DNA of 64,000 nucleotides from Selenomonas ruminantium subsp. lactilytica TAM6421. Its GTDB lineage: Bacteria > Bacillota > Negativicutes > Selenomonadales > Selenomonadaceae. Below, piece after piece: positions 34,355 to 61,231 of the stretch (position 1 is its first letter; each line of letters starts with the position of its first letter). Location: NCBI RefSeq assembly GCF_000284095.1, contig NC_017068.1, positions 2,418,001-2,482,000 of the forward strand, given 5' to 3'. Below the pieces are notes generated by a model. That model worked only from the letters and a program-made list of their open reading frames with translations, was not told where the DNA came from and did not search any database. Position numbers and translations under genes: made by a program.

Positions 34355-35656
34355 TCAAGCTCTTATTGTTGGCAAATATCCTGCAATATCTTTTAACAGC
34401 TGCTCTAAAGATTTCTCCCTGTCTACCGTAATTTCCTTCAACAATTCACCACCTGTGCACAGCCCCATCCGCTCTAACCCGCAAAACTCAACGTCTGGGT
34501 GATGCCAGGGCACCAGCCCCGGTGTCTTGGGTGGATAGAAAACTATGCGGTGGCAATTTGCCCGGCAGGTCACATCAAAGAAGCCGCTGCGAGTGCCTAT
34601 GACCAAGCCCAGATATTCCATGGCCAGAATGGTCTCCGGGAAATCAAAGCGCAGGATTGAAGCCCCCCCAATGTCTGACTTCTCCTCGTCGCCTGCTGCA
34701 TTGATGAAGACCTGATAGCCTTTTTCCTGTAAAACTGAAGCCAATTTCTGCCAAAAATCCCAGGGCATGATCTGCGCCGAATAAGCAAAAGGCGCAAGCA
34801 GCACTCCCCGCCCAGGCTTTACTCCCCTGGACTGCAAATATTGCTCCACAGCGTTCCTGTCCCCCTGCCACTGGGGATGACAAGGATGCGTATCTGAGGA
34901 CAATCCATAGGCAAAATGCCTGAATGTATCCATAAAGGTGCAATGGTGGCTCAGGCGCAACAGAGACGGATTGAAACGGAATTTTCCCTGCCAGCGGGTC
35001 AAAGGAGAGAGCTCCAGCACATCCTCTCCGAAAAAAGTCCAGGCCTGGATAAGGCTGTTGGACTGCTCCTGTGTAAGGGACACCACCGGCTCGATGCCAA
35101 AATAAGGAGATAATTTCTTCAGTCCCTTCGAGGCTCCCGCCATCAGATAGGAGGAAATGCCCTCCCTTTGACAATAGGCATGGAAATACAGCCCCAGCAG
35201 GTAATAGTCTCCCAACGGCCCGTCCGCCAGGAATATCCTGCACTGGCCGTACTCCCGCCGCAGTTCCCTATATAATGCCAGCCCCGCCTGCACAGATTGC
35301 CAGTTCCGTTCCGGGCTAGGCCGTTCCAATACAAAGACCTGCTCGCCCTCCTCATAGCCGAAGCCTTCAAACTGCCGCACTATCTCTGCCCAGTATTTAG
35401 GCGAGTGAACAATGATACGGATGCTTTCAGCGTGAGGAAGCAAGGCCTCCTTGGGGGAAGAAATGGTCAGCCCCATAAAGGAGCGCCCCCATTTGACGCT
35501 GTCATTATCCAAAATACCAGCAGGCTCACATCCGCAGGAACGAAGCAACTCTGCAATCTCCCCCACATTCTCCAGCCTGCCAATCATAAAAATCCTACTA
35601 TGGCTATCCCAGTTGGGAAGCCAGTCATCTATTTCCCTTGCTAATTCTTCCCGCAT
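34355..35656 (-). CDS. GT-B (GT9-like) glycosyltransferase with N-terminal Rossmann-like module
   Basis: A 433-residue protein. Residues ~18-110 form the module shared across this locus (RIFMIGRLENVGEIAELL, ILDNDS, then a GLTI strand and IRIIVHSPKYW). Residues ~135-430 look like a GT-B transferase related to heptosyltransferases: DGPLGDYYLLGLYFHAYC at the first fold, LLAPFAYSAQIMPWDFWQKLASVL at the start of the second, and LGLVIGTRSGFFDVTCRANCHRIVFYP in the donor-binding part. It overlaps its upstream paralogue (35641-37032) by 16 bases; the two probably add related sugars or arose by tandem duplication. Substrates are unknown. Confidence 0.7.
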   Translation of the reverse strand: MREELAREIDDWLPNWDSHSRIFMIGRLENVGEIAELLRSCGCEPAGILDNDSVKWGRSFMGLTISSPKEALLPHAESIRIIVHSPKYWAEIVRQFEGFGYEEGEQVFVLERPSPERNWQSVQAGLALYRELRREYGQCRIFLADGPLGDYYLLGLYFHAYCQREGISSYLMAGASKGLKKLSPYFGIEPVVSLTQEQSNSLIQAWTFFGEDVLELSPLTRWQGKFRFNPSLLRLSHHCTFMDTFRHFAYGLSSDTHPCHPQWQGDRNAVEQYLQSRGVKPGRGVLLAPFAYSAQIMPWDFWQKLASVLQEKGYQVFINAAGDEEKSDIGGASILRFDFPETILAMEYLGLVIGTRSGFFDVTCRANCHRIVFYPPKTPGLVPWHHPDVEFCGLERMGLCTGGELLKEITVDREKSLEQLLKDIAGYLPTIRA

Positions 35657-37032
35657 GGCTCAAACCTCTCCGTAATCGCCTCCATCAGACGCTGGTACTC
35701 CTGTAGTCTTTCCCAGCCATCCAACGTGTCATTGCCCTGCAACAGATCTTCAATGACAGGGGATTCCAATTCTATAAGCTGGTTCTCATCCTGACACAAC
35801 GGTCTCAGGCTGGCAAAATCACGACTAGAACGATGCACGCTGTAGTCAGGCTGACGAATCTCAGACGGATATAAAATTACCTTCCTGCAGGGTACCTGCG
35901 CCACAATATCGCAAAGGCCGCTGCGCAGCGCAAGAAAGTGTCCGGCATAGCGCAAGATGGCCTCACATTCTGCATAAGGAAAGAAAACCGGCTGCATAGA
36001 GCGGAAGGGATTCAGCTCTGCCGTTGGATTGAGGTTGACAAAAACCTTGTACCCCCTGGCCTGCAGCTCTATTGCCATCCTTTCCCAAAACCATGCCGGG
36101 AGTTTCTTGACCGAATAGGCATTGGGCGAGACGATGACTGTTTTGCCCTCCTGCAGCCCCCAAGACTTATATTTTTGGCGCAACTCTTCATTCAAGGGAG
36201 CAAAGAGAGGCTGCTGCCATTCCTCGGAGCTCACGAGATTCTTATAGATGAAATGCTGATATGTTTCCATGAAAGTGAAGCGTTCCTGCATGCGCAGACG
36301 ACATTTATTCAAAGGCAGGGTATTTTCCCACATGAAAAGATCCGTCACATCCGACTTGCGCCAAAAGGTATAGCAAAGCTGAAAAGCCTCAGCTTCTCCA
36401 TGGCTGAGAGCAACTACCTGTTTCCATTCAAACAGTGGAGCCAGACGCTTCAATCCCTTGGCATCTCCTGCCACCACATAATTTTCAAGGCCCAGTTTAC
36501 GGCAATATGGAGCCAGATAAAGCCCATTCAGAAAAACATCCCCGGTAGCTCCCCGCAGCAAAAAGATATGGGCCTTCTCGCCATAGTCAGCTTTTATTTG
36601 CTTGTATAGCGACAAGCCCTGCCTGGCTTTGGCAAACTGGCGGGCAAAGCGCTCCTTGCTGTCAGCTTCCCCGCTGGGCAGATCATGAAGCAGGAAAAAG
36701 TGGACCTTCTCCCTATAACCCCAAGCCTCCAACTGCTCCCTGACACTTTTGTTGCGGCCGGAAGCCATAACCAGGACCAAGGCATTTTCCCTTAAGGGCT
36801 GCAGGACTGCGTCCATCAGATAGACAGGAAGCCCAGCCCGGGATTTGCCCACCTGCTCAGGGTCATCATCTAGCACAGCTGCAAATTCCAGCCCGTAGCA
36901 TTTCAGATAATCCCGCATCATGGCCACATTATGCGCCGAGCCCATTGCCAGAACCATCCTGCCCATAAAGCGCACATCTTCGATGATCTTATGCAGTTCC
37001 AGATAAAGCGGGTCGCGCTTCATGAGCTTCAT
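35641..37032 (-). CDS. GT-B (GT9-like) glycosyltransferase with N-terminal Rossmann-like module, paralogue
   Basis: A 463-residue protein with the same plan as its downstream neighbour. The module covers residues ~25-115 (RMVLAMGSAHNVAMMRDYL, VLDDDP, GLPVYLMD, ALVLVMASGRNKS). The transferase part shows LLRGATGDVFLNGLYLAPYC, VSPNAYSVKKLPAWFWERMA and LALRSGLCDIVAQVPCRKVILYP. It starts with ATG 37032 with GGAGGT upstream, overlapping the previous gene by four bases. Sequence drift between the two paralogues is large, so the duplication is old. Confidence 0.7.
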   Translation of the reverse strand: MKLMKRDPLYLELHKIIEDVRFMGRMVLAMGSAHNVAMMRDYLKCYGLEFAAVLDDDPEQVGKSRAGLPVYLMDAVLQPLRENALVLVMASGRNKSVREQLEAWGYREKVHFFLLHDLPSGEADSKERFARQFAKARQGLSLYKQIKADYGEKAHIFLLRGATGDVFLNGLYLAPYCRKLGLENYVVAGDAKGLKRLAPLFEWKQVVALSHGEAEAFQLCYTFWRKSDVTDLFMWENTLPLNKCRLRMQERFTFMETYQHFIYKNLVSSEEWQQPLFAPLNEELRQKYKSWGLQEGKTVIVSPNAYSVKKLPAWFWERMAIELQARGYKVFVNLNPTAELNPFRSMQPVFFPYAECEAILRYAGHFLALRSGLCDIVAQVPCRKVILYPSEIRQPDYSVHRSSRDFASLRPLCQDENQLIELESPVIEDLLQGNDTLDGWERLQEYQRLMEAITERFEPCGKN

Positions 37033-37496
37033 GGGGTTACCTCCCCCAGCTGCGGTACACAGTCAAAACGATAGATATCATAGCAGAATAAGTCCCGTTT
37101 AGTCACACCAGGTATGCCCAGCAAATTCTCACCACAGGTATCATAAGGAATGGTCAGCGAAATGATGACTACCTTATCACTGAATGGATACAAAGCATAA
37201 AAGCGCATCATGTCCATAATCTGGCCATGCGCCATATAAGTTGCACTGACTTCATAAGTACCGTTGTAAGCCGATAATCTATCCAGCACAGCTTGATTGC
37301 TCGATACAAAAATTGCGCTATGCAATCCCTCTTTATGCAAATACGCATCAATATAGTCTATTGCATAATCATTGTAGTCACTTGTAATATGAGGCATCAG
37401 TATATATCGGTCAACCTGATAGTCAAGCGATAGACGCAACCACAGGCGTCTGCCGCTTACAGCCTCTCTAAGCTCCTTCCCCATCAATTCCACCAT
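37029..37496 (-). CDS. Unknown small protein of the sugar locus
   Basis: A 155-residue protein, not recognised. It begins MVELMGKELREAVSGRRLWLRLSLDYQ and has no membrane helix. The content of Tyr and Asp is high (DYNDYAIDYIDAYL). The ATG at 37496 follows AGGAAATAGGG; an in-frame GTG lies 30 bases upstream with no good site. It overlaps the GT-B gene by four bases and so is translationally coupled to it. It may be an accessory subunit; function unknown. Confidence 0.6.
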   Translation of the reverse strand: MVELMGKELREAVSGRRLWLRLSLDYQVDRYILMPHITSDYNDYAIDYIDAYLHKEGLHSAIFVSSNQAVLDRLSAYNGTYEVSATYMAHGQIMDMMRFYALYPFSDKVVIISLTIPYDTCGENLLGIPGVTKRDLFCYDIYRFDCVPQLGEVTP

Positions 37497-37567: not shown

Positions 37568-39205
37568 TTACTTCATAAAATCGAACCTGACAAAACCTTC
37601 AGGACGACTAACGACATAGGAATCTTCCATGTACTTTTTTACCTTATCCTTGACAGTATAATCCGGATTTAGGATATTTTTGCGTTCGAACTCGTCAATC
37701 GACATATGCCCCCACTGACGTAGATTGTTCATATAGCAATCAGATACGCCCAATTTCTCTCCCAAGCGTACAAAATCAGGGATTTCCTTATAGTTATCCT
37801 CCTGCACTACCATCTGTATGCGGAAGAAACGAATCTTTCCTTCACGTTTCTTCCGAGCCAGCATTTCCAAATTTTGCATCAGTTTATGCCAACTACCACC
37901 TGGACGTAATTTGTTGTATGTATCCTCACAAGCCGCATCGATAGAAATATAAATATCAATATTCTCGTAACAAGGCAATAACCGATCAAACTTATCTTCT
38001 GTAAATAGATTACCGTTTGTAATGAGAAAAAGATCCTGACGTTTCTTATTGCCATAGAGAAGCTTCTGGTAGTATTTGCTGGCAAAGACATCGCCATAGC
38101 CAGCCAATCTTGTCAACTTTAAATCATCAAGCACGTGATTTTCAATGGCATCCTTTACTATAGCATCCAACAAACGACGACGCTCCAATGTAGCCGCTCG
38201 TGGCCCAGGACGACATGACGGGCAGTGCAGATTACATGTGTAATCGATTTCCAACTGCAGATGACGAGGTTTTTCGCTGGTCTCAAAATGCACGCGTTTG
38301 TCTGTAGTACCGGCTTTTACTTGCAGCCTATTGCAAAAATGATGATTGCAGAAGCAATAAGTCTTATTCAACATTGAAAGACGGAAAATCTTGAACCATG
38401 TTGAATTCCACAACTGCGTCCATGTCCGATAATACAGACGCTCCCTATCCGCCCACTTCCCCTGGACTCCCGCCGGACAACATGGGAATGGCCAAAAATT
38501 GTTGCCAATTATCAGATTAAAGAATGGCAGGTCACAATCACAAGGCTGGTCTTCCGGCTGCGCGTAGACAGTTTCATGCAACATTTCCGAGAACTTCGGC
38601 ATCAGTAGGATATCGCTGTCCATGAAATCCTCATTGACCTTCAACCCCAAATCCTCGAGCACGCAAATGCCATGCTCGAATTCTCGCGTTGCAACAATAA
38701 AATAATAATCTTTAAGCTTCACACTACCTACTTCTACACATTCCAGCATTAATGCTTCTGGTGTTCTGACCAGCAACGCGTCCAGACCACAAGTCTTGCT
38801 GACCTCTGAACCTTTATTGCAGTCCGTTAACACAGCCAGCTTCCTACCACGGGCAGCAAGTACTGGATCAAGTTCATCATCAAGTAACAGGAACAATTCA
38901 TCGGCTACGATTATGTGCGCGTCAGATATGCCTTTAGCAAGCAATTCTTGTCTAACTTCTTCTGCATCAAAATCACATATCAAAACAATTTTTGCCTTTG
39001 TAGTGCCTGGATTCCATGCATCTAATGTAAAAACAGGCCTATCGCAATGTCCCTCAATCGGACATTGGTCTATTAAATACGCTTCAACTGCAAGTTCATC
39101 AAAAATGTACTCAACATCTTGCTGAAACTTTCCCATTCCATAAATCAAGATCTGCTCTTCACCTTTTTGTATCGCTTGCAACAGTTTTCTATTTTCCCTA
39201 TCCAT
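37568..39205 (-). CDS. Radical SAM protein with Rossmann-like module and permuted SPASM-like segment
   Basis: A 545-residue protein with three parts. Residues ~15-105 are the shared Rossmann-like module (ILIYGMGKFQQDVEYIF, VLICDFDAEEVRQELL). Residues ~225-310 have a SPASM-like pattern: FPCCPAG, TWTQLWNSTWFKIFRLSML and the cysteines in YCFCNHHFC. Then comes the radical SAM core (~325-500) with CNLHCPSC (CxxxCxxC), ITNGNLF and ISIDAACEDTYNKLR. In standard proteins the SPASM part follows the core, so the order is permuted. It may modify a glycan or peptide by radical chemistry. Start ATG 39205 follows AGGAG. Confidence 0.75.
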   Translation of the reverse strand: MDRENRKLLQAIQKGEEQILIYGMGKFQQDVEYIFDELAVEAYLIDQCPIEGHCDRPVFTLDAWNPGTTKAKIVLICDFDAEEVRQELLAKGISDAHIIVADELFLLLDDELDPVLAARGRKLAVLTDCNKGSEVSKTCGLDALLVRTPEALMLECVEVGSVKLKDYYFIVATREFEHGICVLEDLGLKVNEDFMDSDILLMPKFSEMLHETVYAQPEDQPCDCDLPFFNLIIGNNFWPFPCCPAGVQGKWADRERLYYRTWTQLWNSTWFKIFRLSMLNKTYCFCNHHFCNRLQVKAGTTDKRVHFETSEKPRHLQLEIDYTCNLHCPSCRPGPRAATLERRRLLDAIVKDAIENHVLDDLKLTRLAGYGDVFASKYYQKLLYGNKKRQDLFLITNGNLFTEDKFDRLLPCYENIDIYISIDAACEDTYNKLRPGGSWHKLMQNLEMLARKKREGKIRFFRIQMVVQEDNYKEIPDFVRLGEKLGVSDCYMNNLRQWGHMSIDEFERKNILNPDYTVKDKVKKYMEDSYVVSRPEGFVRFDFMK

Positions 39206-39219: not shown

Positions 39220-39597
39220 TCACAAACTCTCATCTATTTCGGTACTTAATCCCAGCAGCCCCTCATTCCGCTTGCACTCCACGCTATAGCTCATCTTCAG
39301 CCCCGAGGGCTTGCTGTCATTCAGCAGGATGCGTTCCCCCATGGGCATCTGGAACTTGATATCGTTGTAGCGTATGCCCTCCTGCTTCAAGAAAGCCTCA
39401 GTCATCTCGCGAGCCTCTTCTTCCCTAGCTGTCAGTATCAGCACATAATCTTCTGCCGGGATGTTCTGCAAGAATTCCTTAGCCCCCGGCAGCCAGCGGT
39501 CTGCCCCCTCTTTGTAGCCATTGTGCTCCACCAAGGTACCATCAAAGTCAAAAATCCAGGTCTTCCCCAAGGTGGACAAGCGCAGATTCTCCTTCAT
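39220..39597 (-). CDS. HAD-superfamily phosphatase
   Basis: A 125-residue small HAD protein. The nucleophile motif IFDFDGTLVEHNGY is near residue 14, followed by the Thr motif ILTAREEEA and the late acidic pair replaced by LNDSKPSG, which may carry the metal-binding Asp. The ATG at 39597 has AGGAGGAA upstream and overlaps the stop of the NTP-transferase/kinase gene (ATGA). It probably removes a phosphate from a sugar intermediate made by the neighbouring enzymes. Family resembles small capsule-locus phosphatases; substrate is inferred only. Confidence 0.8.
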   Translation of the reverse strand: MKENLRLSTLGKTWIFDFDGTLVEHNGYKEGADRWLPGAKEFLQNIPAEDYVLILTAREEEAREMTEAFLKQEGIRYNDIKFQMPMGERILLNDSKPSGLKMSYSVECKRNEGLLGLSTEIDESL

Positions 39598-41114
39598 GCG
39601 TGTTCCTCCTGCCATTCCTGCCACAGTGCCAGCCCGTTGTAGTATGCCAGGCACATTGAATCGTAGTCTTCCCAGCAATGGCTGGCCAAAGAAATCCAGA
39701 CAATGGCATGGATAAGCTTCAGTTTGGCCACATTGCAGTCAGGAATCTTATCCAGGAAATACTGGGTCAAATCTTCCCAGCCGCTCCTGGCTATCTCATA
39801 CCTGACGCCATCTTCTGCGATTTCCAGTTCAAAATCCTTGATATTGAACCTGTCGAAACGGCCTGCCAAGGAATAATAAATCTTGGCCCAGTCATAATAG
39901 ACATCCCCCATGATCTCTCTGGTACCAAAATAGCCGCGGGCATCGATGAAGTAAATGCGCCCGTCTTTGTCAATCATGGTATTGGTCAAGGTACAATCAC
40001 CATGGATGGGACCAAAGTCAGCCTGGAACAGGAAGTCATGGATTTCCTGCCAAAATTCCTCCCGGAAGAGCAGCACATTCCTGCACTTTTTCCCATTGAT
40101 ATTGATATAGGGCTGGTCGACAAAGGGAATGGCATCCCGTATGCCCTGCACCCTCTTGATGGTCTTGCTGTAGTAATCCTTCTCCAGACCGAAATAGTCT
40201 GGCCCCGGCTGGGCTGACTTGTGCAGTCCGTCCAGCATTTCCACCAGTTGGTCAATGACCTTCTTTTTCTGCTCGGCGGAGAGCTTGGCCAGAAAGATAT
40301 TCTCTCCTTCAATGCGCTCCATGGTCAGCGGCTCATAGACATAAATCTTGGGCACAGCCTGAAAGCCATAGGCCGCCACAGCCTTGTACCAACGGACCTC
40401 GCGCTCAATCAGCTTCTTGCCTTCCTCTGTCAGTCCCGTCTTGATGACACAGTCCTTGGTGAACTCCATGTGATTGTAGGGGCGGCATCTGGCGGTACCT
40501 GGGTCGATAGTCTTCACGGCTTCCAAGGTGCCAGCTTCAGCAGTCTCCCGCAGATTCCAAGCTTGCAAGGGCAGCTTGCTCTCTGTCAGCCATTTTGTGA
40601 AGCTACCCTCACCTGGCAACCCCTGCAGCCTTTCCTTGCTGTCAAAGAGAAAACAACCAGCTACGCCAGACTTTCCCTCAGAAGGGAGCTTCTCCATAGT
40701 TCCTGCCCGAAAACGCCAGCTGCAGGGGAATCTGTCCGACACGCCTACATAGCAGGGAGCAGCTTCTTCCGGCAAAGCCAGGCTCTCATCCAGCAACAGG
40801 TCAGACCACAACAGCATGAATGGCTCACCTGCAGGAATGTACTTCAGAGCCTCTGCCACTCCTGCCCCATTGCCTTTCCCTTCGGCTTTCACCAACAAAT
40901 AGTCCACATCGGCAAAAACCTGCAAATAGCGGCTGAGAACTTCATATTTATAGTCACCAATGATGACGAACTTGCACTTCGGCCATCGCTCAAAGAGATG
41001 GAACACGATAGGCCGGTTCAGTACCGGCACCAGTGCCTTGGGACGGTTCCGCGTCAGTTTCCCCAGTCGCGTACCAAGGCCTCCGGCCTGAATGACAATG
41101 TAATTTACTTCCAT
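39594..41114 (-). CDS. Fusion of sugar-phosphate nucleotidyltransferase and APH/choline-kinase-like domain
   Basis: A 506-residue bifunctional protein. Residues ~1-225 form a nucleotidyltransferase with IQAGGLGTRLGKLTRNRPKAL (GGxGTRL and Lys) and LLWSDLLL for the metal-binding Asp. Residues ~240-500 are a protein-kinase-fold small-molecule kinase: IEGENIFLAKL, the catalytic loop HGDCTLTNTM and the metal Asp in IDARGYFG. Such fusions make and activate a phosphorylated compound in one polypeptide, as with LicA/LicC for phosphocholine. It lies between an SDR and a HAD phosphatase and overlaps the latter. Substrate unknown. Confidence 0.85.
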   Translation of the reverse strand: MEVNYIVIQAGGLGTRLGKLTRNRPKALVPVLNRPIVFHLFERWPKCKFVIIGDYKYEVLSRYLQVFADVDYLLVKAEGKGNGAGVAEALKYIPAGEPFMLLWSDLLLDESLALPEEAAPCYVGVSDRFPCSWRFRAGTMEKLPSEGKSGVAGCFLFDSKERLQGLPGEGSFTKWLTESKLPLQAWNLRETAEAGTLEAVKTIDPGTARCRPYNHMEFTKDCVIKTGLTEEGKKLIEREVRWYKAVAAYGFQAVPKIYVYEPLTMERIEGENIFLAKLSAEQKKKVIDQLVEMLDGLHKSAQPGPDYFGLEKDYYSKTIKRVQGIRDAIPFVDQPYININGKKCRNVLLFREEFWQEIHDFLFQADFGPIHGDCTLTNTMIDKDGRIYFIDARGYFGTREIMGDVYYDWAKIYYSLAGRFDRFNIKDFELEIAEDGVRYEIARSGWEDLTQYFLDKIPDCNVAKLKLIHAIVWISLASHCWEDYDSMCLAYYNGLALWQEWQEEHA

Positions 41115-41128
41115 GAAATATATCCTCC

Positions 41129-42187
41129 TTACGACTGAGCCTTGGTAAATAGTTCCTTCTCAATGGCTACTGTATGCTTTATTCCTTCCTCAGGCGCAAA
41201 GCGTGGCTGCCACCCCAAAGCCCGCAGTTTCTTATCTGACAGCACCGCCCTGCTAATGGGGGTTGGCTGACTGTTATTATCCTCATACCGCACAGCAACG
41301 CCCCCGGCCTTGGCGGCCAGCTGGGCAAAGTCTGCAATGCTGACCTGGGCTGAGGTATCTGCCACGTTATAAGCCTCCCCGGCCTTGCCATGCAATAGCA
41401 CCATCAACAATCCAGCTCCCCCATCAGCCACATAAGTATAGGAACGCACCTGCCCACCACGGCTCCGCAGGACAATATCTTCTCCACGGGAAGCCTGTCT
41501 CGTAAACTGAGCCGTAGCCCGGTTGTCTTTCTCCGTATGAGTTGGCCCGTAGGTATGGGCAGGCCTTGCCACCACCGCATCCACACCGTACTCATGTACA
41601 TATGAAAGGCAGAGATTTTCTGCCAGACGTTTCGACAAGGGATAGCAGCTGCGGACGCTGGCCTGGTCAATGTGGCCAAAATCCTGCTCATCCAAAGCAT
41701 CAGCATTGCCGGTCTCACCATAGACCTCACCGCTGGACAAGAACAAAAGGCGCCCACGGCCAGCCTGACGCAAGATGTCCAGCATTTTCCCAGTCCCCTC
41801 TACATTGGCCTTAATGACCTCCACAGGCTGCTCATACATGGAGTGGGGATCTGCACCACCTGCCGCATGAATGATATACTCTGGGCAGATATCTGGATAT
41901 CCCCAGGCCTGTGTCACATCCTGCACCAGTAACTCCATGTTATCTACAGGCTCCACTACAGGAAAGCGCCCCTGCAACCGCTCCAAACTGCGTGCAGAAG
42001 CATAAATCTTGCAAGCCAGTTGCCGCTCCCTATTGCCCAGACGCAATGCATCCACCAAAAATGACCCCAAAAGCCCCGCAGCCCCCGTCACAAGTACAGA
42101 CTTGCCAATCAGTTTTTCCAGACCAGGCACACTGTCCAGACAAGTCCGCAAGTCCTGACGATATAATTCACTTGACATCAAAGCCAT
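41129..42187 (-). CDS. NAD-dependent sugar epimerase/dehydratase (extended SDR)
   Basis: A 352-residue protein. The NAD-binding motif VTGAAGLLGSFLVDAL is near residue 32, the Ser of the catalytic triad in SSGEVYG and the Tyr/Lys pair in YPLSKRLAEN. RPAHTYGP and RSYTYVADG fit nucleotide-sugar-binding members such as UDP-glucuronate decarboxylases and dTDP-sugar epimerases. Start: ATG 42187 with GAGG upstream, ten bases after the cytidylyltransferase stop, so the pair is co-translated. It may act on the CDP- or NDP-activated product of the neighbouring transferases. Confidence 0.8.
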   Translation of the reverse strand: MALMSSELYRQDLRTCLDSVPGLEKLIGKSVLVTGAAGLLGSFLVDALRLGNRERQLACKIYASARSLERLQGRFPVVEPVDNMELLVQDVTQAWGYPDICPEYIIHAAGGADPHSMYEQPVEVIKANVEGTGKMLDILRQAGRGRLLFLSSGEVYGETGNADALDEQDFGHIDQASVRSCYPLSKRLAENLCLSYVHEYGVDAVVARPAHTYGPTHTEKDNRATAQFTRQASRGEDIVLRSRGGQVRSYTYVADGGAGLLMVLLHGKAGEAYNVADTSAQVSIADFAQLAAKAGGVAVRYEDNNSQPTPISRAVLSDKKLRALGWQPRFAPEEGIKHTVAIEKELFTKAQS

Positions 42188-42196
42188 AGCCATGCC

Positions 42197-52368: not shown

Positions 52369-53643
52369 TTATACCATACATATATAGGTTTGATTCCCCA
52401 ATAATTTCAAAACATTTATCATCTCAATTTGCTTATCTGGCATCACAGCTAGAAGAACTACATTATTGGGGGATTTTCTACACAATTCATTTATGTCACA
52501 AATTTCATTTCCCATAAAATAGTTGTTTGTTTTATTAGTGACTGCAATTTTAAACTTATCAATCCCTAAATTATGAAGGTATATCAGCGTTCTACCTGCA
52601 ACATATCCTGCTCCATAAACAATAACAGTATTGCAATTTTTCATTAAACATAATTCTTCATCAGTAAATTTATGCAATGATGGTTCTGGCCTAACAATAC
52701 ACTTAAACACCTCAAGTGCAATATTTTCCCACGGTCGTAAAAATACAATTTTTCCCCCATCGATGATGTTAAAATTATCATTCCATATGCGATGTACCAA
52801 GGAAAAATGCCCACCTAACCACCTCGATATACATTCCATATTATCAGGCAGAATGTTTTTTTGATATAAAACCTCCTTCATTGCATAGCAAGCTTGTATA
52901 AATTTATCCATTAGATATTTTTCTGTAAAAACATCAGTTGTCACCGATGCATGTCGACGATAATAATGATATAATGGCACATCAATACATTTAGTTCTGT
53001 CGGCTCTCAAAATTGCCTGCAATGAAAATAAGCAATCTTCTTCAAAACGAAGTTCTTCATTGAAAAACAATCTACTGTCATGCAGAAACTCCCTCTTGAA
53101 AACAGCCGCCCATACCACCCCTAACTGTGCATTGTTTCTTAATTGAAGAACAAACATTTCCTGTCCGTTTATAGCTTTATCAATACATGCCCCCGCACGT
53201 GTTCGGACCACCATACCTTTTTCTTTTTGCCTTATCTTATCATCCTCATATTCAAAAACAAATCCAAAATATAGTATGTCCAACCTATCTTTCGTCGATA
53301 ACTCATATAGTTTCTTGGCTGCATCTAGTTCTAGCCAATCATCTGCATCAACCATAAGAATATATTCGCCAGATGCTACTACTAAACCAATATTTCGTGC
53401 AATCGATTGTCCTAAATTTCTAGAAGGCACTTCATTCCCACTGCTATAAAACAACTTTACCCTTTCATCTCTTGCCGCATACTGTTGAACAATCGCTGTC
53501 GAACCATCAGTAGATGCATCATCTACACAGATTATCTCTATCTCCTTCAAAGTTTGTCCTATTAGACTATTCAAGCATCTACTTAGATATTTTTCAGCAT
53601 TAAATATCGGCACTATAATAGAAATCTTTACATATCCTTTCAA
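52369..53643 (-). CDS. GT2 glycosyltransferase with C-terminal Rossmann-like module
   Basis: A 424-residue protein with TTG start (GAGGT upstream). The GT-A domain (~6-240) has ISIIVPIFNAEKYLSRCL, IICVDDASTDGS and VDADDWLE, the latter with the metal-binding Asp pair. Residues ~335-424 are the shared module (VIVYGAGYVAGRTLIYL, VVLLAVMPDKQIEM). It is a member of a trio with the GT2 enzymes at 48267 and 54902, all with the module at the C-terminus. Confidence 0.82.
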   Translation of the reverse strand: MKGYVKISIIVPIFNAEKYLSRCLNSLIGQTLKEIEIICVDDASTDGSTAIVQQYAARDERVKLFYSSGNEVPSRNLGQSIARNIGLVVASGEYILMVDADDWLELDAAKKLYELSTKDRLDILYFGFVFEYEDDKIRQKEKGMVVRTRAGACIDKAINGQEMFVLQLRNNAQLGVVWAAVFKREFLHDSRLFFNEELRFEEDCLFSLQAILRADRTKCIDVPLYHYYRRHASVTTDVFTEKYLMDKFIQACYAMKEVLYQKNILPDNMECISRWLGGHFSLVHRIWNDNFNIIDGGKIVFLRPWENIALEVFKCIVRPEPSLHKFTDEELCLMKNCNTVIVYGAGYVAGRTLIYLHNLGIDKFKIAVTNKTNNYFMGNEICDINELCRKSPNNVVLLAVMPDKQIEMINVLKLLGNQTYICMV

Positions 53644-53682: not shown

Positions 53683-54783
53683 TTACCTTCTAATACATAA
53701 AATACCATTTTTCTTAAACTCATCATCAGCGAACAGCCAAGCACATTGTGCCAAATGCACCGAATCTCTATAATATTGTGTTTTAGTTTTATACTCCTCG
53801 TCAACCAGCATTGGAAAAATCGACAAACATGTTGCAATATTTCCATCTAAGCATTTCTTTTTTAGTTCTCTTATAAAATATTCTGTCGCTTTATTGCGTT
53901 CAGCTTGCGTCCCAGAACGTGGAAAATTATCATCTAATTTGCAATCATCACTTTGAGAAGCCACTGGACACCAAATATAGACTCTATACTTTTCGCTCAA
54001 CTTATTAACAAACGACACATAATTTTCAACAACTTTATCGACCACGCGATGAAAGTCCCCCCCCCTTTTTGTCTGTTTAAATACATGTACTCTTATATCA
54101 ATTTCCCCGAATACGCATAATATCTTCTCACCAGCAGGAATTAGATTTAAAATACGGTCTATTTTTTCTCTTGCTTTAGTGGTTGTCCCGTAATTATTTA
54201 GATTATATGCCAATGCTGGTCCCAAATGGAATACCTTAAATGGATCAATACGTGGTCTGCACAATCCGAGACCATCTCTATACACATAATTGTCTAAATA
54301 GCAGCCAGAAAAAAAACATGCATGACTATCACCTATCACAAAAATTCTATTTTTCTCTTTCGGGTTTATATAATATCTTTCCAGCATCAAATCCCATAAT
54401 TCATGCGAAGAATTCATTCCATTACTTATTGAATTATCATTATTGTTAATTATATTGCTAAATACTTCTACGCATTTATTAGGAGGAATAAATTTATATA
54501 AATGATCTCTTATCTCATGAAAATTATTTACTTGATAACTGGCAACCAGCACTATGATATCCTTCTGATTTTTGAGAAATGTGCTATTTTTTACTTTATT
54601 ATTTACATCTGCTAAGAAATTATCTATTATCGCAAATTCTTGTATATTAAACTCATAATTCATTATTCCTTTTAAGATTTTTCCACCTTCGCCAAAAGGA
54701 TATATAACAAATTTTGTATCTTTGCCAAACTCAATCAATACTCTTTCCAAAGCATTTCGGGCTAAAGCAGATAAATTAGGCAT
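53683..54783 (-). CDS. SGNH-hydrolase-like protein with N-terminal Rossmann-like module
   Basis: A 366-residue protein. Residues ~20-115 form a diverged module (FVIYPFGEGGKILKGI, AIIDNF, IIVLVASYQVNNF). Residues ~145-360 look like an SGNH hydrolase: block I VIGDSHACFFSG with the likely Ser nucleophile, a GEID block for the acidic contact, and DSVHLA near the C-terminus for the Asp-His pair. Such enzymes remove or transfer acyl groups on sugars. It lies between two GT2 genes. Esterase versus acyltransferase cannot be decided. Confidence 0.7.
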   Translation of the reverse strand: MPNLSALARNALERVLIEFGKDTKFVIYPFGEGGKILKGIMNYEFNIQEFAIIDNFLADVNNKVKNSTFLKNQKDIIVLVASYQVNNFHEIRDHLYKFIPPNKCVEVFSNIINNNDNSISNGMNSSHELWDLMLERYYINPKEKNRIFVIGDSHACFFSGCYLDNYVYRDGLGLCRPRIDPFKVFHLGPALAYNLNNYGTTTKAREKIDRILNLIPAGEKILCVFGEIDIRVHVFKQTKRGGDFHRVVDKVVENYVSFVNKLSEKYRVYIWCPVASQSDDCKLDDNFPRSGTQAERNKATEYFIRELKKKCLDGNIATCLSIFPMLVDEEYKTKTQYYRDSVHLAQCAWLFADDEFKKNGILCIRR

Positions 54784-54901: not shown

Positions 54902-56206
54902 TTATACTTTTATGGAATTCGGAGACTGCATGACTGCATATCCTTCTTTAAGTACGATATATGAGAAGTGTCTCTCATCTAACAAGCAAACTATTTCATC
55001 TTGCCAACACCTCGTTACAGCTAGAATAATTACATCCTTTTCATCATCGAAATTCTCCAAAGATCCCAAATCATATAAAGGGAATCCAGCTACATTTGTT
55101 TTGTCTTTCTTATCCGTAACAACAAAATATATTTTATTTCTCGAACAACCATATTGTAAGAGTAACTGCAACATCTTCTGCCCACATACACCGGCACCAT
55201 ACAAAAAAATTCTCTCTTTATTTATTACCCGGTGCAAATCAGATGAATTCATAAAGATTTCTGATCGACGTTCTTGTATACTTTCTAATACAACGCCTCG
55301 TAGCAGCATAGCATCTACAGGACTATTGAATTTTAACTCAATCAGTTCCTCTTGTGAAAATTTTTTAGCATAATTCAATCCAACTGTTAAAAATACGCTT
55401 ACATAGTTCAACGCTTCCATAGCACATCGGCTATCATCAAATTTATGTTTTCGCAAGAACTCTGAACAACGTAACCACAAAAGCAAATATGAACGGCAAT
55501 GACGCAGCTCATGTGAAAAAGTACGTCCCGTCATTACAGACCCATCTCGGTAACGACGTAAATGAAATGCCTTCGGTAAAGCCATCATTTTCTTGGCTGT
55601 CAATACTGCTCGCAGACAAAACAATTCATCCTCATGTGGCGATGTTTCTTCATCATTAAATATTCCATTATCTAACAAGTACGAATGTCTCCAGAGGTAT
55701 CTTCCTGGCTGACATGATGCCCTTTCTTTAGAACAGAATTTCAAAAATAAATTTTCTCCCGATATCACTCCATTATCTATCTGAAATTTAGCAACTGATG
55801 CACTCAATGATACACCTTGCTTGAGTTCTGGTGAATCAAAGACATCCTCAGCATCAAAAATTATTCCTTCAACCTGCTCTTGGTCAGCTATTCGGCACAA
55901 TTCTGAAAGAGCATTTGACCGTAACATATCGTCTGAATCCAAAAAATATACATACTCTCCCCTTGCTTCACGCAAACCAATATTTCGTCCTGCAGCCTGT
56001 CCACCATTTTTTTCTAATTTGATTAAACGAATACGATTATCCTGCAATGCATATTTTTGCATAATATCTGCTGAATTATCAGTAGATGCATCATCTATGC
56101 ATATAATTTCCCAACTAGACATATCTTGTTCTATCACACTATCCAAACAAGCTGCAATATAATCCTCAGTATTATATACAGGTATAATTACTGAAACTTT
56201 TATCAT
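54902..56206 (-). CDS. GT2 glycosyltransferase with C-terminal Rossmann-like module
   Basis: A 434-residue protein. The GT-A domain (~4-240) has VSVIIPVYNTEDYIAACLDS, IICIDDASTDNS and FLDSDDM. The region ~330-425 is the shared module (RIFLYGAGVCGQKMLQLL, DVIILAVTRCWQDEI). AAGGTGA precedes the ATG. It follows the UDP-xylose synthase gene by 35 bases and could use that product, but donor choice is inference. Confidence 0.82.
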   Translation of the reverse strand: MIKVSVIIPVYNTEDYIAACLDSVIEQDMSSWEIICIDDASTDNSADIMQKYALQDNRIRLIKLEKNGGQAAGRNIGLREARGEYVYFLDSDDMLRSNALSELCRIADQEQVEGIIFDAEDVFDSPELKQGVSLSASVAKFQIDNGVISGENLFLKFCSKERASCQPGRYLWRHSYLLDNGIFNDEETSPHEDELFCLRAVLTAKKMMALPKAFHLRRYRDGSVMTGRTFSHELRHCRSYLLLWLRCSEFLRKHKFDDSRCAMEALNYVSVFLTVGLNYAKKFSQEELIELKFNSPVDAMLLRGVVLESIQERRSEIFMNSSDLHRVINKERIFLYGAGVCGQKMLQLLLQYGCSRNKIYFVVTDKKDKTNVAGFPLYDLGSLENFDDEKDVIILAVTRCWQDEIVCLLDERHFSYIVLKEGYAVMQSPNSIKV

Positions 56207-56241: not shown

Positions 56242-57180
56242 TTACATAAGCCCTCTAAAGTACTCAATCGTCCTCTTTAAACCCTCTTCAAGAGCTACCT
56301 TTGGTTTCCATCCTAACTCTGACATCGCAACATCAATAACTGGGCAACGCTGTACCGGATCATCCGATGGCAGAGACTTATAAACAATTTTTGATGAACT
56401 TCCTGTCATTTTCAATACAATTTCCGCCAACTGCTTTATGGTATATTCAGCTGGATTACCTATATTCACAGGTCCGGAAAAATCTTCGCGGGAATTATTC
56501 ATCATACGGTACATGCCCTCAATAAGATCATCTACATACTGGAAACTACGAGTCTGAGAGCCGTCCCCATATATAGTAATATCCTCACCTCTCAAAGCCT
56601 GCACAACGAAATTAGAAATAACCCTGCCATCGTTCAAGCTCATACGTGGTCCATAAGTATTGAAGATACGCACAACTTTAATGTTAAGATTTTCCTGTCG
56701 CTTGTAATCGAAGAACAAGGTTTCAGCCATGCGCTTGCCTTCATCATAACATGAACGTATGCCAATGGGATTTACACACCCGCGATATCGCTCTGGCTGT
56801 GGATGCACCTCCGGATCACCATATACTTCAGATGTACTTGCCTGTAAAATACGTGCTTTTAGTCGCCTTGCTAGACCTAGCATATTCAATGCCCCAAGCA
56901 CACTGGTCCTACCAGTCTGTATGGGATCATGCTGATAATGCACAGGGCTGGCAGGACATGCCAGGTTGTATATCTGATCTACTTCAACATAAAGTGGCAT
57001 CGTTACATCGTGACGGATAAATTCAAAATAAGGATTACCCAACAAATGCCGTATATTGTCTTTATTGCCCGTGAATAAATTATCTACACAAATTACATCT
57101 GAACCTTCTTTTATTAACCTGTCACAAAGATGGGAGCCCAGGAATCCTGCGCCACCGGTAACCAAAACCCTCTTCCTCAC
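56242..57180 (-). CDS. UDP-glucuronate decarboxylase (UDP-xylose synthase)
   Basis: A 312-residue extended SDR that turns UDP-glucuronate into UDP-xylose. [16 protein letters not shown] binds [19 protein letters not shown] and [13 protein letters not shown] contain the catalytic residues, and [15 protein letters not shown] is typical of this enzyme. It starts with GTG at 57180, with TAGGAG upstream, 13 bases after the UDP-glucose dehydrogenase gene. Together the two genes give a UDP-glucose to UDP-glucuronate to UDP-xylose route. Confidence 0.92.
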
Positions 57181-57193
57181 ATCGCATCAGCTC

Positions 57194-58534
57194 CTACCGC
57201 CACTCTACAAAATTGTCCCCCACACCGATCTGGTAATACTCGAAGCCCATTTCCCTCAAATTATCACTCTCATACTGATTGCGCCCATCAAAAATAACTG
57301 GTTCCTTCAAACATTCCTTAATCCTCTCAAAGTCTGGGCATCTGAATTCTTTCCATTCCGTGATTAAAATAAGTGCAGCACACCCCTTCAATGCATCGTA
57401 TTTTCCATCAAAGTATTCTATGTTCTTATTATCACGAAAATATATTGTCCGTGCCAATTTCTCTGCCTGCGGATCATACGCATGCACCTTTGCCCCCCGC
57501 TTAGTCAGCTCGCCTACTATCACCAGCGAAGCTGCACAACGCATATCGTCCGTATCAGGCTTGAACGACAATCCCCAACAGGTAAAGTGCAATCCTTCCA
57601 AATTCTCCCCGTACTTAGCTACGATACGCCTAGGTAAAACTTGTTTTTGCGACTCATTAACTGCTTCAACAGCCTTCAATATACGTGCTTCGTACCCTAG
57701 GCCACCACTAGTACGGATAAGTGCCTGTACATCCTTTGGAAAACAGCTCCCTCCATAACCGCACCCAGGAAAGATAAAACTATAGCCTATACGAGGATCA
57801 GAACCTATTCCCATTCGAACTTTATTCACATCTGCTCCTACTAATTCACAAATATTTGCTATTTCGTTGATGAAGCTGATTTTTGTAGCAAGCATACAAT
57901 TGGCAGCATACTTCGTCATCTCTGCACTTGCAATATCCATATGAAGCAGATGACCTGTGCTCCTAAGAAACGGTTTATAAAGTTTCGCCATCAAACGTGC
58001 TGCTTTTTCAGATTCAGTACCAACTATTATTCGGTCTGGCAGTAGACAATCATGCACTGCTGTTCCCTCTTTCAAGAACTCTGGATTTGATATCACATCA
58101 AAAGTAAGCTCACTATCGCGGGCATCTAATTCATGTTGTACCGCCTTGCGTACTTTTCGTGAGGTCCCTACTGGAACGGTTGATTTGTCTACGATAAACA
58201 TATGTCGTACCATCATTCTTCCGATGGATGATGCCACTGCAAGCACAGCTGACAAATCAGCACTACCATCCTCTCCGGGAGGTGTGCCAACTGCAATAAA
58301 ACAAACATTTACCTCCTGCAACGCCTCATCAATATCAGTTACAAAGTGCAGTCTATCTATATTCTTCTGAACTAATTCCTTCAACCCTGGCTCAAATATA
58401 GGTATCACTGTATTTTGCAATTCTGTTATCTTTTCTTTATCTTTATCCACACACCATACATCATTCCCCATCTCCGCAAAGCACGTTCCCGATACCAAGC
58501 CAACATACCCTACCCCCACAATCGCTATTTTCAT
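57194..58534 (-). CDS. ugd: UDP-glucose 6-dehydrogenase
   Basis: A 446-residue enzyme that oxidises UDP-glucose twice to UDP-glucuronate. The N-terminal NAD-binding motif is VGVGYVGLVSGTCFAEMG, the catalytic Cys is in YGGSCFPKDV and the dimer helix follows. STVPVGTSRKVR and ISNPEFLKEGTAVHD are family hallmarks. Length is normal. It supplies the decarboxylase immediately downstream and possibly a GlcA transferase. Confidence 0.95.
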   Translation of the reverse strand: MKIAIVGVGYVGLVSGTCFAEMGNDVWCVDKDKEKITELQNTVIPIFEPGLKELVQKNIDRLHFVTDIDEALQEVNVCFIAVGTPPGEDGSADLSAVLAVASSIGRMMVRHMFIVDKSTVPVGTSRKVRKAVQHELDARDSELTFDVISNPEFLKEGTAVHDCLLPDRIIVGTESEKAARLMAKLYKPFLRSTGHLLHMDIASAEMTKYAANCMLATKISFINEIANICELVGADVNKVRMGIGSDPRIGYSFIFPGCGYGGSCFPKDVQALIRTSGGLGYEARILKAVEAVNESQKQVLPRRIVAKYGENLEGLHFTCWGLSFKPDTDDMRCAASLVIVGELTKRGAKVHAYDPQAEKLARTIYFRDNKNIEYFDGKYDALKGCAALILITEWKEFRCPDFERIKECLKEPVIFDGRNQYESDNLREMGFEYYQIGVGDNFVEWR

Positions 58535-58644: not shown

Positions 58645-59928
58645 TCAAACTACTTCAATATGAAAGTATTGGCAGGCGGGCAACTTCTTAAGATAATCTC
58701 CTAATCTGTCATGAAGATATTCTGTTATTTCTATACGCTTATCTTCAGGATACGCATCCATAACATTTGCTGGGAGAGTTTGTGCCCAGCGAATTCTCCC
58801 CCGCACTGAACGACTTTGGACATTAAATAACACATATTTATCCGGCTTATAGTACACACAGCCTGGATTTAAAATACAATTGGAAAGCAACCATAATATT
58901 TCCTCTCTATGTTCATCTTCAGACAAAGCAATCCAATCAGAGGGATTGGCTGCACTAAGATTTTCACGCCAATTATTCAAGTGACAAATATGAACGGATC
59001 TAGGATATAGATTACGATTACTAGCCGTTGTCCTAACATTTCCTCCTGCATCCATATAATCATTTATACCAGTAAATGTTGGATTCTTAAACTTAGCATA
59101 ATTCTGCGGATCATGAACAACACAATGCCCTTTCAACGCTTTTGGACTTCCTATTTTTTTTAAACGTTCAAATAGTTTCGGGGTAACATCATCGTGTTCT
59201 TCACTTGACAGTCTTTTAGGAACATCCAAACATCCTCCACAGATTTCACACCAAGAAAGCTGCTCACCAAAATCTTTCGGTTTTCTTCGCCACCAACCCG
59301 GTTCAATAGCCCAACCACCAGGACCGTCAAAAAGCATATCCAGGGCACCGGCCACCTCGCAAAAAAATGCTCCTTTTGGCGTAACAGTTGCAGACCATGT
59401 ATTTTGTACCCAACATGCATCACGCTTTTTGATCCATTCTTCGTCCGGTATGCCCAATTCATTGCGACTCATCAACAGAGCCTGATGCATACATTCATTG
59501 TTATGGTCATTCAAAAGTTGCCGAGAAAATGATTGATTTATAGTTTCAAAATGCTTGTAATACGAACTCGTCAAAGATGACCATAGTCCTGTATTAACTC
59601 CTGCATAATCTCCAGAAAAATACCTAGTAATATATCCCTGCATATTGACAATCGGTTCTCTAGCTGTTTTTACATCTTCCTTTAATCTAGCCTCTTTGAG
59701 ATAATCGGCCATACGTTCAAACTCAGGGTGTAGTGTAGGCTCTCCTCCTATCATGCCAACTGTGTTCGGAAAATCAGCCAAAGAATCAACAGCTTTTTTA
59801 AATGTGTCAAAATCCATAAAAAAAGGTTTGACATGATGTCCACACATGCGTGTGCAATTCGAACATTCATGTGCACACGCATTGGTAACATCTATTTGTA
59901 TAATAAACATGTCCGCTGGACTACGCAT
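58645..59928 (-). CDS. Radical SAM protein of the sugar locus
   Basis: A 427-residue protein. The iron-sulphur motif CAHECSNC (CxxxCxxC) lies at residues ~18-25, preceded by IQIDVTNA. MIGGEPTLHPEF is the SAM-binding GGE region. More cysteines (CEICGGC, CHLNNW, CVYY) in the second half suggest an auxiliary cluster. No Rossmann-like module is present, unlike the radical SAM protein at 37568. GGAGA precedes the ATG. It may modify a sugar or act on a carrier; substrate unknown. Confidence 0.8.
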   Translation of the reverse strand: MRSPADMFIIQIDVTNACAHECSNCTRMCGHHVKPFFMDFDTFKKAVDSLADFPNTVGMIGGEPTLHPEFERMADYLKEARLKEDVKTAREPIVNMQGYITRYFSGDYAGVNTGLWSSLTSSYYKHFETINQSFSRQLLNDHNNECMHQALLMSRNELGIPDEEWIKKRDACWVQNTWSATVTPKGAFFCEVAGALDMLFDGPGGWAIEPGWWRRKPKDFGEQLSWCEICGGCLDVPKRLSSEEHDDVTPKLFERLKKIGSPKALKGHCVVHDPQNYAKFKNPTFTGINDYMDAGGNVRTTASNRNLYPRSVHICHLNNWRENLSAANPSDWIALSEDEHREEILWLLSNCILNPGCVYYKPDKYVLFNVQSRSVRGRIRWAQTLPANVMDAYPEDKRIEITEYLHDRLGDYLKKLPACQYFHIEVV

Positions 59929-60025
59929 AAATTCATCTCCATTTTTAGTTATTCATAAACTTGCATCTTTTCCTGAGAATCTTGAAACCCTCAGAAAACC
60001 CACAGCTTATCCATTTTCAAATTCA

Positions 60026-61231
60026 TTACAAATCAACTATATATCCATTTTCATCTGTAGCAGTCTCCTGGTAAATCCCTTTAAAGCCTCTAGGATTTAC
60101 CATAATCAATTCTGTATGTGGATACGCAAGTAATGCAAATTCTTTAAGTTTCACGTGCTTATCATAAAAAATTCTCATCTGTGGCTCTATATATTCCTTT
60201 TTGTATCGACTCTGCTTATCGTATTCCTCATCAAAATAATTCACTTTATCATAAGCATATCCATCACAACCAACTAAATATATTTTTTGGGGACGACAAA
60301 ACAAAGCAAACTGCACAGCTGAAAATAAAACGCTCACATTTCCATTCAAAAAATTATATCTTAAGTCAGGCCAAAAATCTCCACTTGTCAATTCTTGATT
60401 GTAGTAAACATTATAATCATATATCTGACACTCATCATACGGAGGAGTTATAGGCCATCGTTCCCCTATCGTTTGTCCGATAAACTTTACGCATTCCAGC
60501 TTATTCATTCGTTCAAGTAGTTCATTTCTCGATTTCAATTCCTCTCTATTTTGCGGATGATAAACATTCGTTACATGTTGATTAAAATAGTAATCCAGCA
60601 TGCCAGAATACTTTTCATCAAGCATCATACTATTCATTCCTATATGTATTCTACCATCATCAAAATTATACAGATTTAATGTCTGTCCACATCCACAAAC
60701 AACTACTTCCTTTCCTTCAAAAGCACCGTAATATGGACCAAATGTTTTTTTGTGAATTTCAAGCATAACAGGCATGGCACTGATCATATACTGAAGATTG
60801 GTTAGCTTGCATTCCAACCTTTTTATCTCAGCTAACATCTTGTATGATAAATCTCTTGTACTTGCAGACAAATCTTCTATTTCCGCAGATATATATCTAT
60901 ATTCTTCTTCGGAAATAATATGTACGTTTGTCAATCCACGATTTAACAACTCTAACTCCATTGCTTGCTGAATTCTACTATTCATAGCAGCAATAATCAC
61001 TAGTACATCAGCCGAAAAAGAAAATTTACTAATTTCAAGAACAGATATCCCCATAATCTGAGGAGGAGTACTTGCATTTCTATTAGTAACTATAACACCA
61101 TCTATTTTATCAACCCCTACATGCTTTATACAATATCTTATTATTAAACTACCACACTCACCTGCACCATAAACAACTATCTTGTTTGCTTTATTGATAC
61201 AAGAGTTGAAAAGACTTAACTTCGCATTCAT
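60026..61231 (-). CDS. DUF115/MptE-like protein with N-terminal Rossmann-like module
   Basis: A 401-residue protein. Residues ~14-105 are the shared module (IVVYGAGECGSLIIRYC, VLVIIAAMNSRIQQA). A helical stretch (~115-165) leads into a C-terminal domain: KEVVVCGCGQTLNLYNF, IGMNSMML and IYLVGCDGYAYDKV, which resembles DUF115 proteins, the group containing Maf flagellin glycosyltransferases and MptE. GAGAGGT is upstream of the ATG. Given a chemotaxis gene nearby and no exporter, a role in protein glycosylation is possible but not shown. Confidence 0.65.
   Translation of the reverse strand: MNAKLSLFNSCINKANKIVVYGAGECGSLIIRYCIKHVGVDKIDGVIVTNRNASTPPQIMGISVLEISKFSFSADVLVIIAAMNSRIQQAMELELLNRGLTNVHIISEEEYRYISAEIEDLSASTRDLSYKMLAEIKRLECKLTNLQYMISAMPVMLEIHKKTFGPYYGAFEGKEVVVCGCGQTLNLYNFDDGRIHIGMNSMMLDEKYSGMLDYYFNQHVTNVYHPQNREELKSRNELLERMNKLECVKFIGQTIGERWPITPPYDECQIYDYNVYYNQELTSGDFWPDLRYNFLNGNVSVLFSAVQFALFCRPQKIYLVGCDGYAYDKVNYFDEEYDKQSRYKKEYIEPQMRIFYDKHVKLKEFALLAYPHTELIMVNPRGFKGIYQETATDENGYIVDL

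Follow-up and report, generated by a model that had tools for sequence, protein, structure and literature searches.

Thirteen open reading frames (ORFs) of Selenomonas ruminantium subsp. lactilytica TAM6421, located at positions 34,355–61,231 of the 64,000-nt stretch analysed here (NC_017068.1, 2,418,001–2,482,000; hereafter the window), carry a segment of about 90 residues with the predicted fold of a nucleotide-binding-type Rossmann domain. According to our analysis, the segment is one homologous module in twelve of these ORFs and probably in the thirteenth, it recurs in module-rich loci of related bacteria, and it sits on transferases and tailoring enzymes, not on the enzymes that make their precursors. 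We tentatively propose, with somewhat less than even confidence, that the module, equipped with a nucleotide pocket, recruits or docks enzymes on the acceptor side, and that it would act in the cytosol and most likely serve the glycosylation of flagellin.

The thirteen sequences alone were insufficient as proof of a single module, because in a leave-one-out test, where a profile built from twelve segments was scored on the held-out one, six copies were weak or absent (g34355, g35641, g37568, g42930, g45107, and g53683; genes are named by their lower window coordinate). Six other held-out copies reached 22–27 bits and g46550 16 bits; the best of 2000 shuffled decoys scored 8.5–15.8 bits, depending on the run, so that the highest decoy of all runs (15.8 bits) was not exceeded by six of the true copies. 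The homology is carried by a profile made from relatives only, which was seeded with one module of another genome, grown over stretches of ten other genomes and finally comprised 115 domains in 109 proteins, with no window sequence among them; since the genomes and the seed had been chosen through profiles that included the window, the choice was steered, whereas the training was not. When all 127 window ORFs of at least 90 aa were scored, this profile recovered 12 of the 13 segments at 20.7–54.3 bits (iE 3.5e-15 to 1.1e-4, Z = 5000). The next scores belonged to an unrelated ORF (10.9 bits), g53683 (9.8 bits), a UDP-sugar dehydrogenase (5.7 bits) and an SDR protein (4.2 bits). Chance likeness among Rossmann folds was thus rejected, as the true Rossmann enzymes of the window score at most 5.7 bits. 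The claim of a first-pass annotation of the window that thirteen enzymes carry the same module is therefore firm for twelve. The g53683 segment is a probable copy, compatible but unproven: two of its orthologues taken together gave the hhalign values listed in Table 1, and its model, computed from the alignment of the thirteen window sequences, showed a similar order of structural elements.

The AlphaFold2 model of the g49655 module (74 sequences; pLDDT 93.5, pTM 0.85) and the sequence searches agree in predicting an NAD(P)-type Rossmann fold similar to that of PglF, WbaP, and Rex. The best structural neighbour was PDB entry 2g6t (Z 13.2, root mean square deviation 2.1 over 92), also ranked first by Foldseek (E 7e-6), which, going by the names, we take to be CAC2185 of Clostridium acetobutylicum, after which the Pfam family C2185-like_N would have been named. 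It was followed by the PglF-type dehydratase 3nkl (Z 12.2), a domain of unknown function of the phosphoglycosyl transferase WbaP (8t53, Z 11.4) and Rex (Z 11.0), then by succinyl-CoA synthetase and PerB/PglB; VioB with a TDP-sugar was also a neighbour. The fold as such is common, with Z ≥ 5 in 866 and Z ≥ 8 in 205 of the 1000 chains compared. By sequence, the search retrieved 3nkl (1.3e-10), Rex (1.7e-9), VioB (4e-5), and WbaP (2e-4). That similar folds bind nucleotides, as the first-pass annotation stated, holds for Rex and VioB, and the WbaP domain, which dimerises, has been implicated in uridine nucleotide binding in the accessible part of its description (PMC10942596). None of the thirteen full-length proteins reached the cut-off of the PglD_N family (PF17836, 23.4 bits), and g49655 alone among them matched at E ≤ 0.1 with 14.4 bits (18.5 bits for its isolated module), and the one PglD_N match of the TAM6421 genome at E ≤ 0.001 falls outside the window. 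Some relatives exceed this cut-off (e.g., L044:17728-18771 at 25.9 bits). The thirteen full-length proteins also stayed below the cut-off of C2185-like_N (PF22674, 27 bits), with g49655 (20.6 bits; 24.7 bits for the isolated module) and g51142 (20.1 bits) matching at E ≤ 0.1. In the stretches of 11 genomes (ten relatives and the window) a profile that included the window copies found 128 domains in 122 proteins; 100 of these modules were compared with Pfam at E ≤ 0.1, where PglD_N was the most frequent match (30), with 14 matches to C2185-like_N and 12 to Methyltransf_14.

With the modules masked, an all-against-all comparison placed the thirteen window partners in nine clusters, namely three GT2 proteins (g48267, g52369, and g54902), the pairs g34355/g35641 and g42930/g46550, and one protein each of the GT9-like, radical SAM, FkbM, SGNH-like, and GT52 kinds together with the g60026 partner. 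The partners are therefore diverse, as first described, but represent nine families rather than thirteen unrelated enzymes; the placement of the segments at the N- or C-terminus was as described. GT2, GT52, FkbM, and radical SAM were over the Pfam cut-offs, whereas SGNH (19.4 against 27 bits), HAD (22.7 against 26.4), and GT9 in g49655 (21.7 against 22) were under them, and the DUF115/MptE-like label of g60026 (13.1 against 34.6 bits) is unsupported. The partners of g34355 and g35641 had no Pfam family at E ≤ 0.1; a GT-B identity for both was considered and dropped, as hhalign against the GT9 group aligned the module columns. A solved relative of the g60026 partner was likewise sought, and the best match, a Rab5 exchange factor at E 0.011, was taken as chance. 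A 165-aa protein without a Pfam match (37029–37526) recurs next to genes of the g34355/g35641 type in one relative (L049:9285-9815).

Across the 11 genomes the addition of g45107 gave 123 module proteins, which fell into 40 partner clusters. Of these, 19 comprise two or more proteins and 21 are singletons, and among the singletons at least six are cut at stretch ends or scarcely more than the module; the clusters were formed by single linkage, so that multidomain proteins may chain. Both N- and C-terminal fusions occur within each of the clusters C0, C4, and C6. Beyond the window, the module was also found on TIM-barrel-like, TylF, TagF-like, and WbsX partners and in the interior of a methyltransferase-cytidylyltransferase fusion. 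Several proteins contain two to four copies, some of them in tandem (L060:5163-9738, L053:15713-17446, and L059:7809-9362), and two short ORFs (L045:2852-3265, 137 aa; L061:7796-8161, 121 aa) are nearly bare modules, which may be stand-alone or fragments.

The distribution of the module separates the two sides of the pathway. Between the first and the last module gene of the 11 genomes, 121 ORFs carry the module and 91 do not. Pfam domains at E ≤ 0.01 on the module proteins (103 of 123 scanned) were mainly GT2 (19), radical SAM (10), GT9 (8), FkbM (7), DUF4422 (5), WbsX (5), and Glyphos_transf (4). Those on the module-free ORFs (67 of 91 scanned, after omission of 21 ORFs shorter than 180 aa and of three that may carry a module) were mainly NTP_transf_3 (12), Epimerase (10), IspD (5), GT2 (4), DegT (3), UDP-sugar dehydrogenase (3), and AAA-type (3). 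Nine sugar-nucleotide-making enzymes used as queries had no relative among the 123 module proteins, whose modules were masked for this search; of the 67 module-free ORFs they matched 26, five of which are the queries themselves (Fisher test 4e-14, relatedness ignored). A single conserved hub gene was looked for and rejected: no module-free cluster occurs in the stretches of all 11 genomes, the widest being the SDR proteins (9) and the IspD-like proteins (7).

Table 1. Copies of the module and module-free genes in the window; bits are scores against the relatives-only profile unless a Pfam family is named, and all named module ORFs lie on the minus strand.
Feature	ORF (partner)	Position	Strand	Evidence
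Module, N-terminal	34355–35656	35333..35605	-	51.8 bits; GxG lost, D kept; partner without Pfam family, clusters with g35641
Module, N-terminal	35641–37032	36694..36963	-	31.5 bits; GxG lost
Module, N-terminal	37568–39223 (radical SAM)	38906..39163	-	27.1 bits; Radical_SAM 36.4 bits
Module, N-terminal	42930–45035 (HAD-like)	44718..44972	-	28.5 bits; Hydrolase 22.7 bits, under cut-off
Module, N-terminal	45107–46495 (GT52/polysialyltransferase-like)	46142..46399	-	20.7 bits; GT52 82.1 bits
Module, C-terminal	46550–48241 (partner cluster C4, with g42930)	46604..46885	-	31.4 bits
Module, C-terminal	48267–49730 (GT2)	48351..48623	-	39.5 bits; GT2 123.5 bits
Module, N-terminal	49655–51091 (GT9-like)	50777..51055	-	54.3 bits; AlphaFold2-modelled copy, pLDDT 93.5
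Module, N-terminal	51142–52335 (FkbM methyltransferase)	52030..52299	-	49.1 bits; Methyltransf_21 37 bits
Module, C-terminal	52369–53643 (GT2)	52372..52638	-	32.4 bits; GT2 112.6 bits
Probable module, N-terminal	53683–54783 (SGNH-like, under cut-off)	54466..54723	-	9.8 bits, weakest copy; hhalign probability 25%, E 7.5e-4; pLDDT 75.7
Module, C-terminal	54902–56206 (GT2)	54950..55222	-	44.3 bits; GT2 127.7 bits
Module, N-terminal	60026–61231 (DUF115-like label unproven)	60911..61192	-	44.1 bits
Precursor genes without module	39594 (NTP transferase + APH kinase fusion), 41129 (SDR), 42197 (IspD-like cytidylyltransferase)	39594..42907	-	Pfam; no match to relatives-only profile
Precursor genes without module	56242 (SDR epimerase), 57194 (UDP-sugar dehydrogenase)	56242..58534	-	Pfam; 4.2 and 5.7 bits
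Other module-free genes (60026 excepted)	58645 (radical SAM-like), 61301, 63475 (runs off window end)	58645..63999	-	58645: radical SAM 28.5 bits, just under the Pfam cut-off

Most copies retain a glycine-rich loop and an acidic residue after strand 2, which suggests a nucleotide pocket. Over 500 modules the signature F/Y-G-x-G-x-x-[GAC] plus D was conserved at 97% (first G), 95% (second G), 86% ([GAC]), and 83% (D), in an unweighted count that holds some genomes twice and is somewhat circular, as the profile used for finding the modules rewards these residues. Among the 128 modules of the 11 genomes, GxG was intact in 109 and the acidic residue (D/E) present in 97; two of the 19 copies without GxG have no residues aligned at that site. 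In the window the loop is kept in eight copies and lost in five, so that the earlier remark on worn GxG loops applies better to the window than to the wider set, and as an argument it does not exclude a redox role. The loop is missing from every member of two partner clusters, cluster 10 (4/4) and cluster 16 (2/2, close relatives), with the fold kept, which argues for a role beyond ligand binding. Judged from the sequences, the pocket is usually retained, yet it can apparently be lost while the domain persists.

In the TAM6421 genome, the profile of the thirteen segments matched, apart from these, a single further site at E ≤ 10, which lies in a 653-aa ORF, and the wider A2 profile gave 15 matches at E ≤ 1e-5, two of them beyond the thirteen. 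Matches at E ≤ 1e-3 occurred in 27 of 59 relatives and were often crowded into one stretch; the first-pass annotation had suggested a search of other genomes for such loci, and module-rich loci of like kind were indeed found. A set of named loci, obtained through a TIM-barrel-like module protein (the best 80 of its 125 relatives), derives mostly from Lachnospiraceae and other clostridia, besides Selenomonas, Selenomonadaceae, Anaerovibrio, Megamonas, and one Desulfovibrio metagenome-assembled genome. The 50 named loci of at least 20 kb, each found via a module-bearing gene, hold a median of six module proteins (range 1–9), and 43 of them hold at least three. Eight genomes with just one or two module proteins in their named locus had 3 to 61 matches at E ≤ 1e-6. 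Particularly rich were a Eubacterium (G327, 61 profile matches), a member of the Clostridiaceae (G328, 38), a member of the Lachnospiraceae (G330, 30), and a Roseburia (G324, 26), where the matches form several separate loci (L161–L195). Within a sample of the phylum, 92 of 149 genomes had matches at E ≤ 1e-5, many being single frames of about 210–250 or 620–650 aa at about 1e-8, which we take for Rex and proteins of the PglF type; dense module clusters were seen in G188 (14 matches), G003, G148, G177, and G141. An initial contig scan with g49655 had given seven pattern matches and no confirmed relatives, no viral homologues of the fold appeared at E ≤ 0.001, and an Rfam scan of L001 gave no match.

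In many genomes the module clusters are linked to flagellin genes. Flagellin lies 14–51 kb from the module cluster in 7 of the 10 relatives. Ten genomes of the phylum sample (TAM6421 included) have a module match of at least 55 bits, and in seven of them such a match lies 11–43 kb from flagellin among the matches listed (P 9e-4 at an assumed chance rate of 20%). One further genome (G111) has just a 49.5-bit match near flagellin and would make it 8 of 10; G193 and TAM6421 have no flagellin within 50 kb among the matches listed. For 40 of the 80 named loci that were tested, flagellin was present in 39 of 39 genomes, against base rates of 40/80 in the family of one such genome and 125/149 in the phylum sample (Fisher tests 3e-9 and 0.005, relatedness ignored), and a flagellin ORF lies inside 7 of the 80 loci. 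Upstream of the window there are GT4-like, methyltransferase, FrhB-like, pyruvyl transferase, NeuB, DegT, and TagF-like genes, of which we count NeuB and DegT toward a role in flagellin glycosylation. Polytopic membrane proteins are scarce inside the module spans: a simple hydropathy count over four partly overlapping ORF sets gave 2 of 822 inside and 32 of 736 outside, a contrast that comes mainly from the named loci (1/394 against 27/403). By hydropathy, one of the 24 window genes has a single transmembrane-like stretch.

We suggest that one homologous module was joined repeatedly to enzymes of glycan synthesis and decoration, at the N-terminus, at the C-terminus or internally. It would hold the enzymes that work on the acceptor, such as glycosyl- and phosphotransferases, methyltransferases and radical SAM proteins, together or onto a common acceptor. 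In a cytosolic pathway lacking membrane anchors, these enzymes would have to find one acceptor, most likely flagellin, and the nucleotide pocket kept in most copies may gate the docking, as could be the case in WbaP. We favour recruitment or docking since the module sits on acceptor-side enzymes, at either end, tolerates the loss of its pocket and is related to the WbaP domain. From the "common docking or sensing domain" of the first-pass annotation, one recurrent fold on acceptor-side enzymes, in loci with few polytopic proteins, is borne out, and docking and binding are what we infer. In a broader form of this idea, possible but rather doubtful in our judgement, one exchangeable recruitment module would define an entire class of bacterial glycan factories that work without membranes; any enzyme that gains the module would join the assembly line, glycans would evolve by module capture, flagellin would be one acceptor, and genomes with up to 61 matches would run several parallel factories.

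A number of observations weigh against docking on flagellin. A cytidylyltransferase domain occurs on four module proteins, an exception to the split, and the four GT2 domains on module-free ORFs also blur it. The pocket is conserved in most copies, for which a pure docking domain would have no need. Modules with different partners show a median identity of 18.0% within one genome and 17.7% between genomes; with no greater likeness inside a genome than across genomes, no locus-specific interface is seen, and co-divergence within loci was sought and not found. In the 11-genome set, polytopic proteins are rare outside the spans as well (1/145, with 0/165 inside). Three of the ten relatives have no flagellin on the contig of the cluster examined, although in one of them (G023) a second module cluster lies about 70 kb from flagellin. 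In TAM6421 itself the distance to the closest flagellin is 109 kb; 6 of the 11 flagellin-like matches of this genome are gathered within some 53 kb (G000:C1:2588473-2641599). No flagellin was found in the examined stretches of the four module-rich genomes G324, G327, G328, and G330 (26–61 matches) with a profile built from Selenomonas flagellins, whose sensitivity there is unsure; because these four gave none, the target may be broader than flagellin. Furthermore, in the available text of PMC4000134 the neighbourhood of CA_C2195, which includes CA_C2186 and CA_C2187, encodes export proteins in several operons, and cell-surface carbohydrate is favoured over intracellular protein modification.

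The main alternative is that the module works as an allosteric sensor, through which one shared nucleotide (UMP/UDP, CMP or NAD(H)) tunes all glycan enzymes, with no need for docking. The strong, if somewhat circular, pocket signature of the 500 modules would fit such a role, as would the lack of locus-specific co-divergence, expected if all copies read one invariant ligand. However, two entire clusters lost the loop and kept the domain, and the relatives of the nine precursor-making enzymes, which are usual targets of feedback, lack the module. We therefore regard a sensor as plausible enough to be weighed, but unlikely. Appreciably less probable is that the module grips a nucleotide-linked glycan intermediate by its nucleotide and holds it out to each of the enzymes, a role proposed for the N-terminal domain of PglD/VioB-type acetyltransferases. 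The frequency of PglD_N and the matches to Methyltransf_14 among the modules speak for such a handle, together with VioB bound to a TDP-sugar and PerB among the structural neighbours; the SDR and DegT proteins of the same spans, which modify sugar nucleotides, are nevertheless free of the module, and we know of no pathway that builds a long glycan on a nucleotide.

Still more improbable is a redox gate, in which a Rex-like NAD(H) domain would make glycosylation enzymes respond to the redox state inside an anaerobic cell. Rex is among the closest matches by sequence and fold, and a conserved aspartate after strand 2 suits an NAD-type ribose contact, but domains that bind other nucleotides have the same signature, and no redox partner domain was seen. 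Finally, it is very unlikely that the modules are functionless leftovers of an ancestral fusion that recombination has carried from one glycan locus to another: GxG is absent from some copies and identity is about 18%, yet at this identity the fold and the aspartate are mostly kept over many partner clusters and at both protein ends, and the module recurs in distant families, with multiple copies in several proteins.

The docking module proposed here can be compared with several known systems. CAC2185, the best structural neighbour, lies near CA_C2186 and CA_C2187, described as a glycosyltransferase and spsE (PMC4000134); it differs in that few of the modules match its Pfam model, and no shared-module pattern appears in the available text of that article. 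The WbaP domain and the PglF-type dehydratase resemble the module in fold and sequence but are single domains within membrane enzymes, whereas the module is spread over many soluble enzyme families; the counterpart domain of EpsZ is predicted to touch a regulator, according to the accessible part of PMC12802240. The Rex NAD(H)-sensing repressors, similarly close in fold and sequence, have a DNA-binding domain and another gene context, and for the module NAD is a candidate ligand. In the model for Clostridium difficile type A, as given in the available part of PMC10714395, a phosphate-linked decoration of flagellin is made by a cytidylyltransferase and TagF-like enzymes. The module loci share with it a TagF-like phosphotransferase, a cytidylyltransferase and, in many genomes, the linkage to flagellin, but they have more enzymes each than this or the Maf systems and possess the common module; in addition, the TAM6421 genome gave no match to the Maf-type flagellin transferase family MptE/Maf (PF01973). 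Some flagellin glycosylation systems use transferases of other types. We claim a likeness to flagellin glycosylation islands and not membership among them. Neither the fold nor this type of locus is new; a literature search, mainly of open-access articles, found no description of a module common to the enzymes of such loci.

How soluble enzymes build long decorated glycans in order, with neither a lipid carrier nor a membrane scaffold, is an open question, to which such a module may be relevant. One module across many enzyme families predicts which proteins belong together and suggests a genome-mining rule for loci of this type in gut and rumen bacteria. It also hints at one function that may be shared by the Rossmann-like domains found in WbaP, PglF, and CAC2185, which have been a puzzle.

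Some further genes of the region deserve mention. The ORF at 61301–63454 (717 aa), located among transferases, matched neither a Pfam family at E ≤ 0.1 nor a PDB entry at E ≤ 1. The gene at 39594–41114 fuses an NTP transferase to an APH-type kinase and lies near the IspD-like cytidylyltransferase gene; presumably, the fusion resembles a LicC/LicA pair. The lower flank of the locus contains two pentose-phosphate epimerases and a zinc dehydrogenase. Within one gene at 24904–25902, Panacea and MqsA antitoxin-like domains are combined, near a transposase-like helix-turn-helix gene at 23131–23802.

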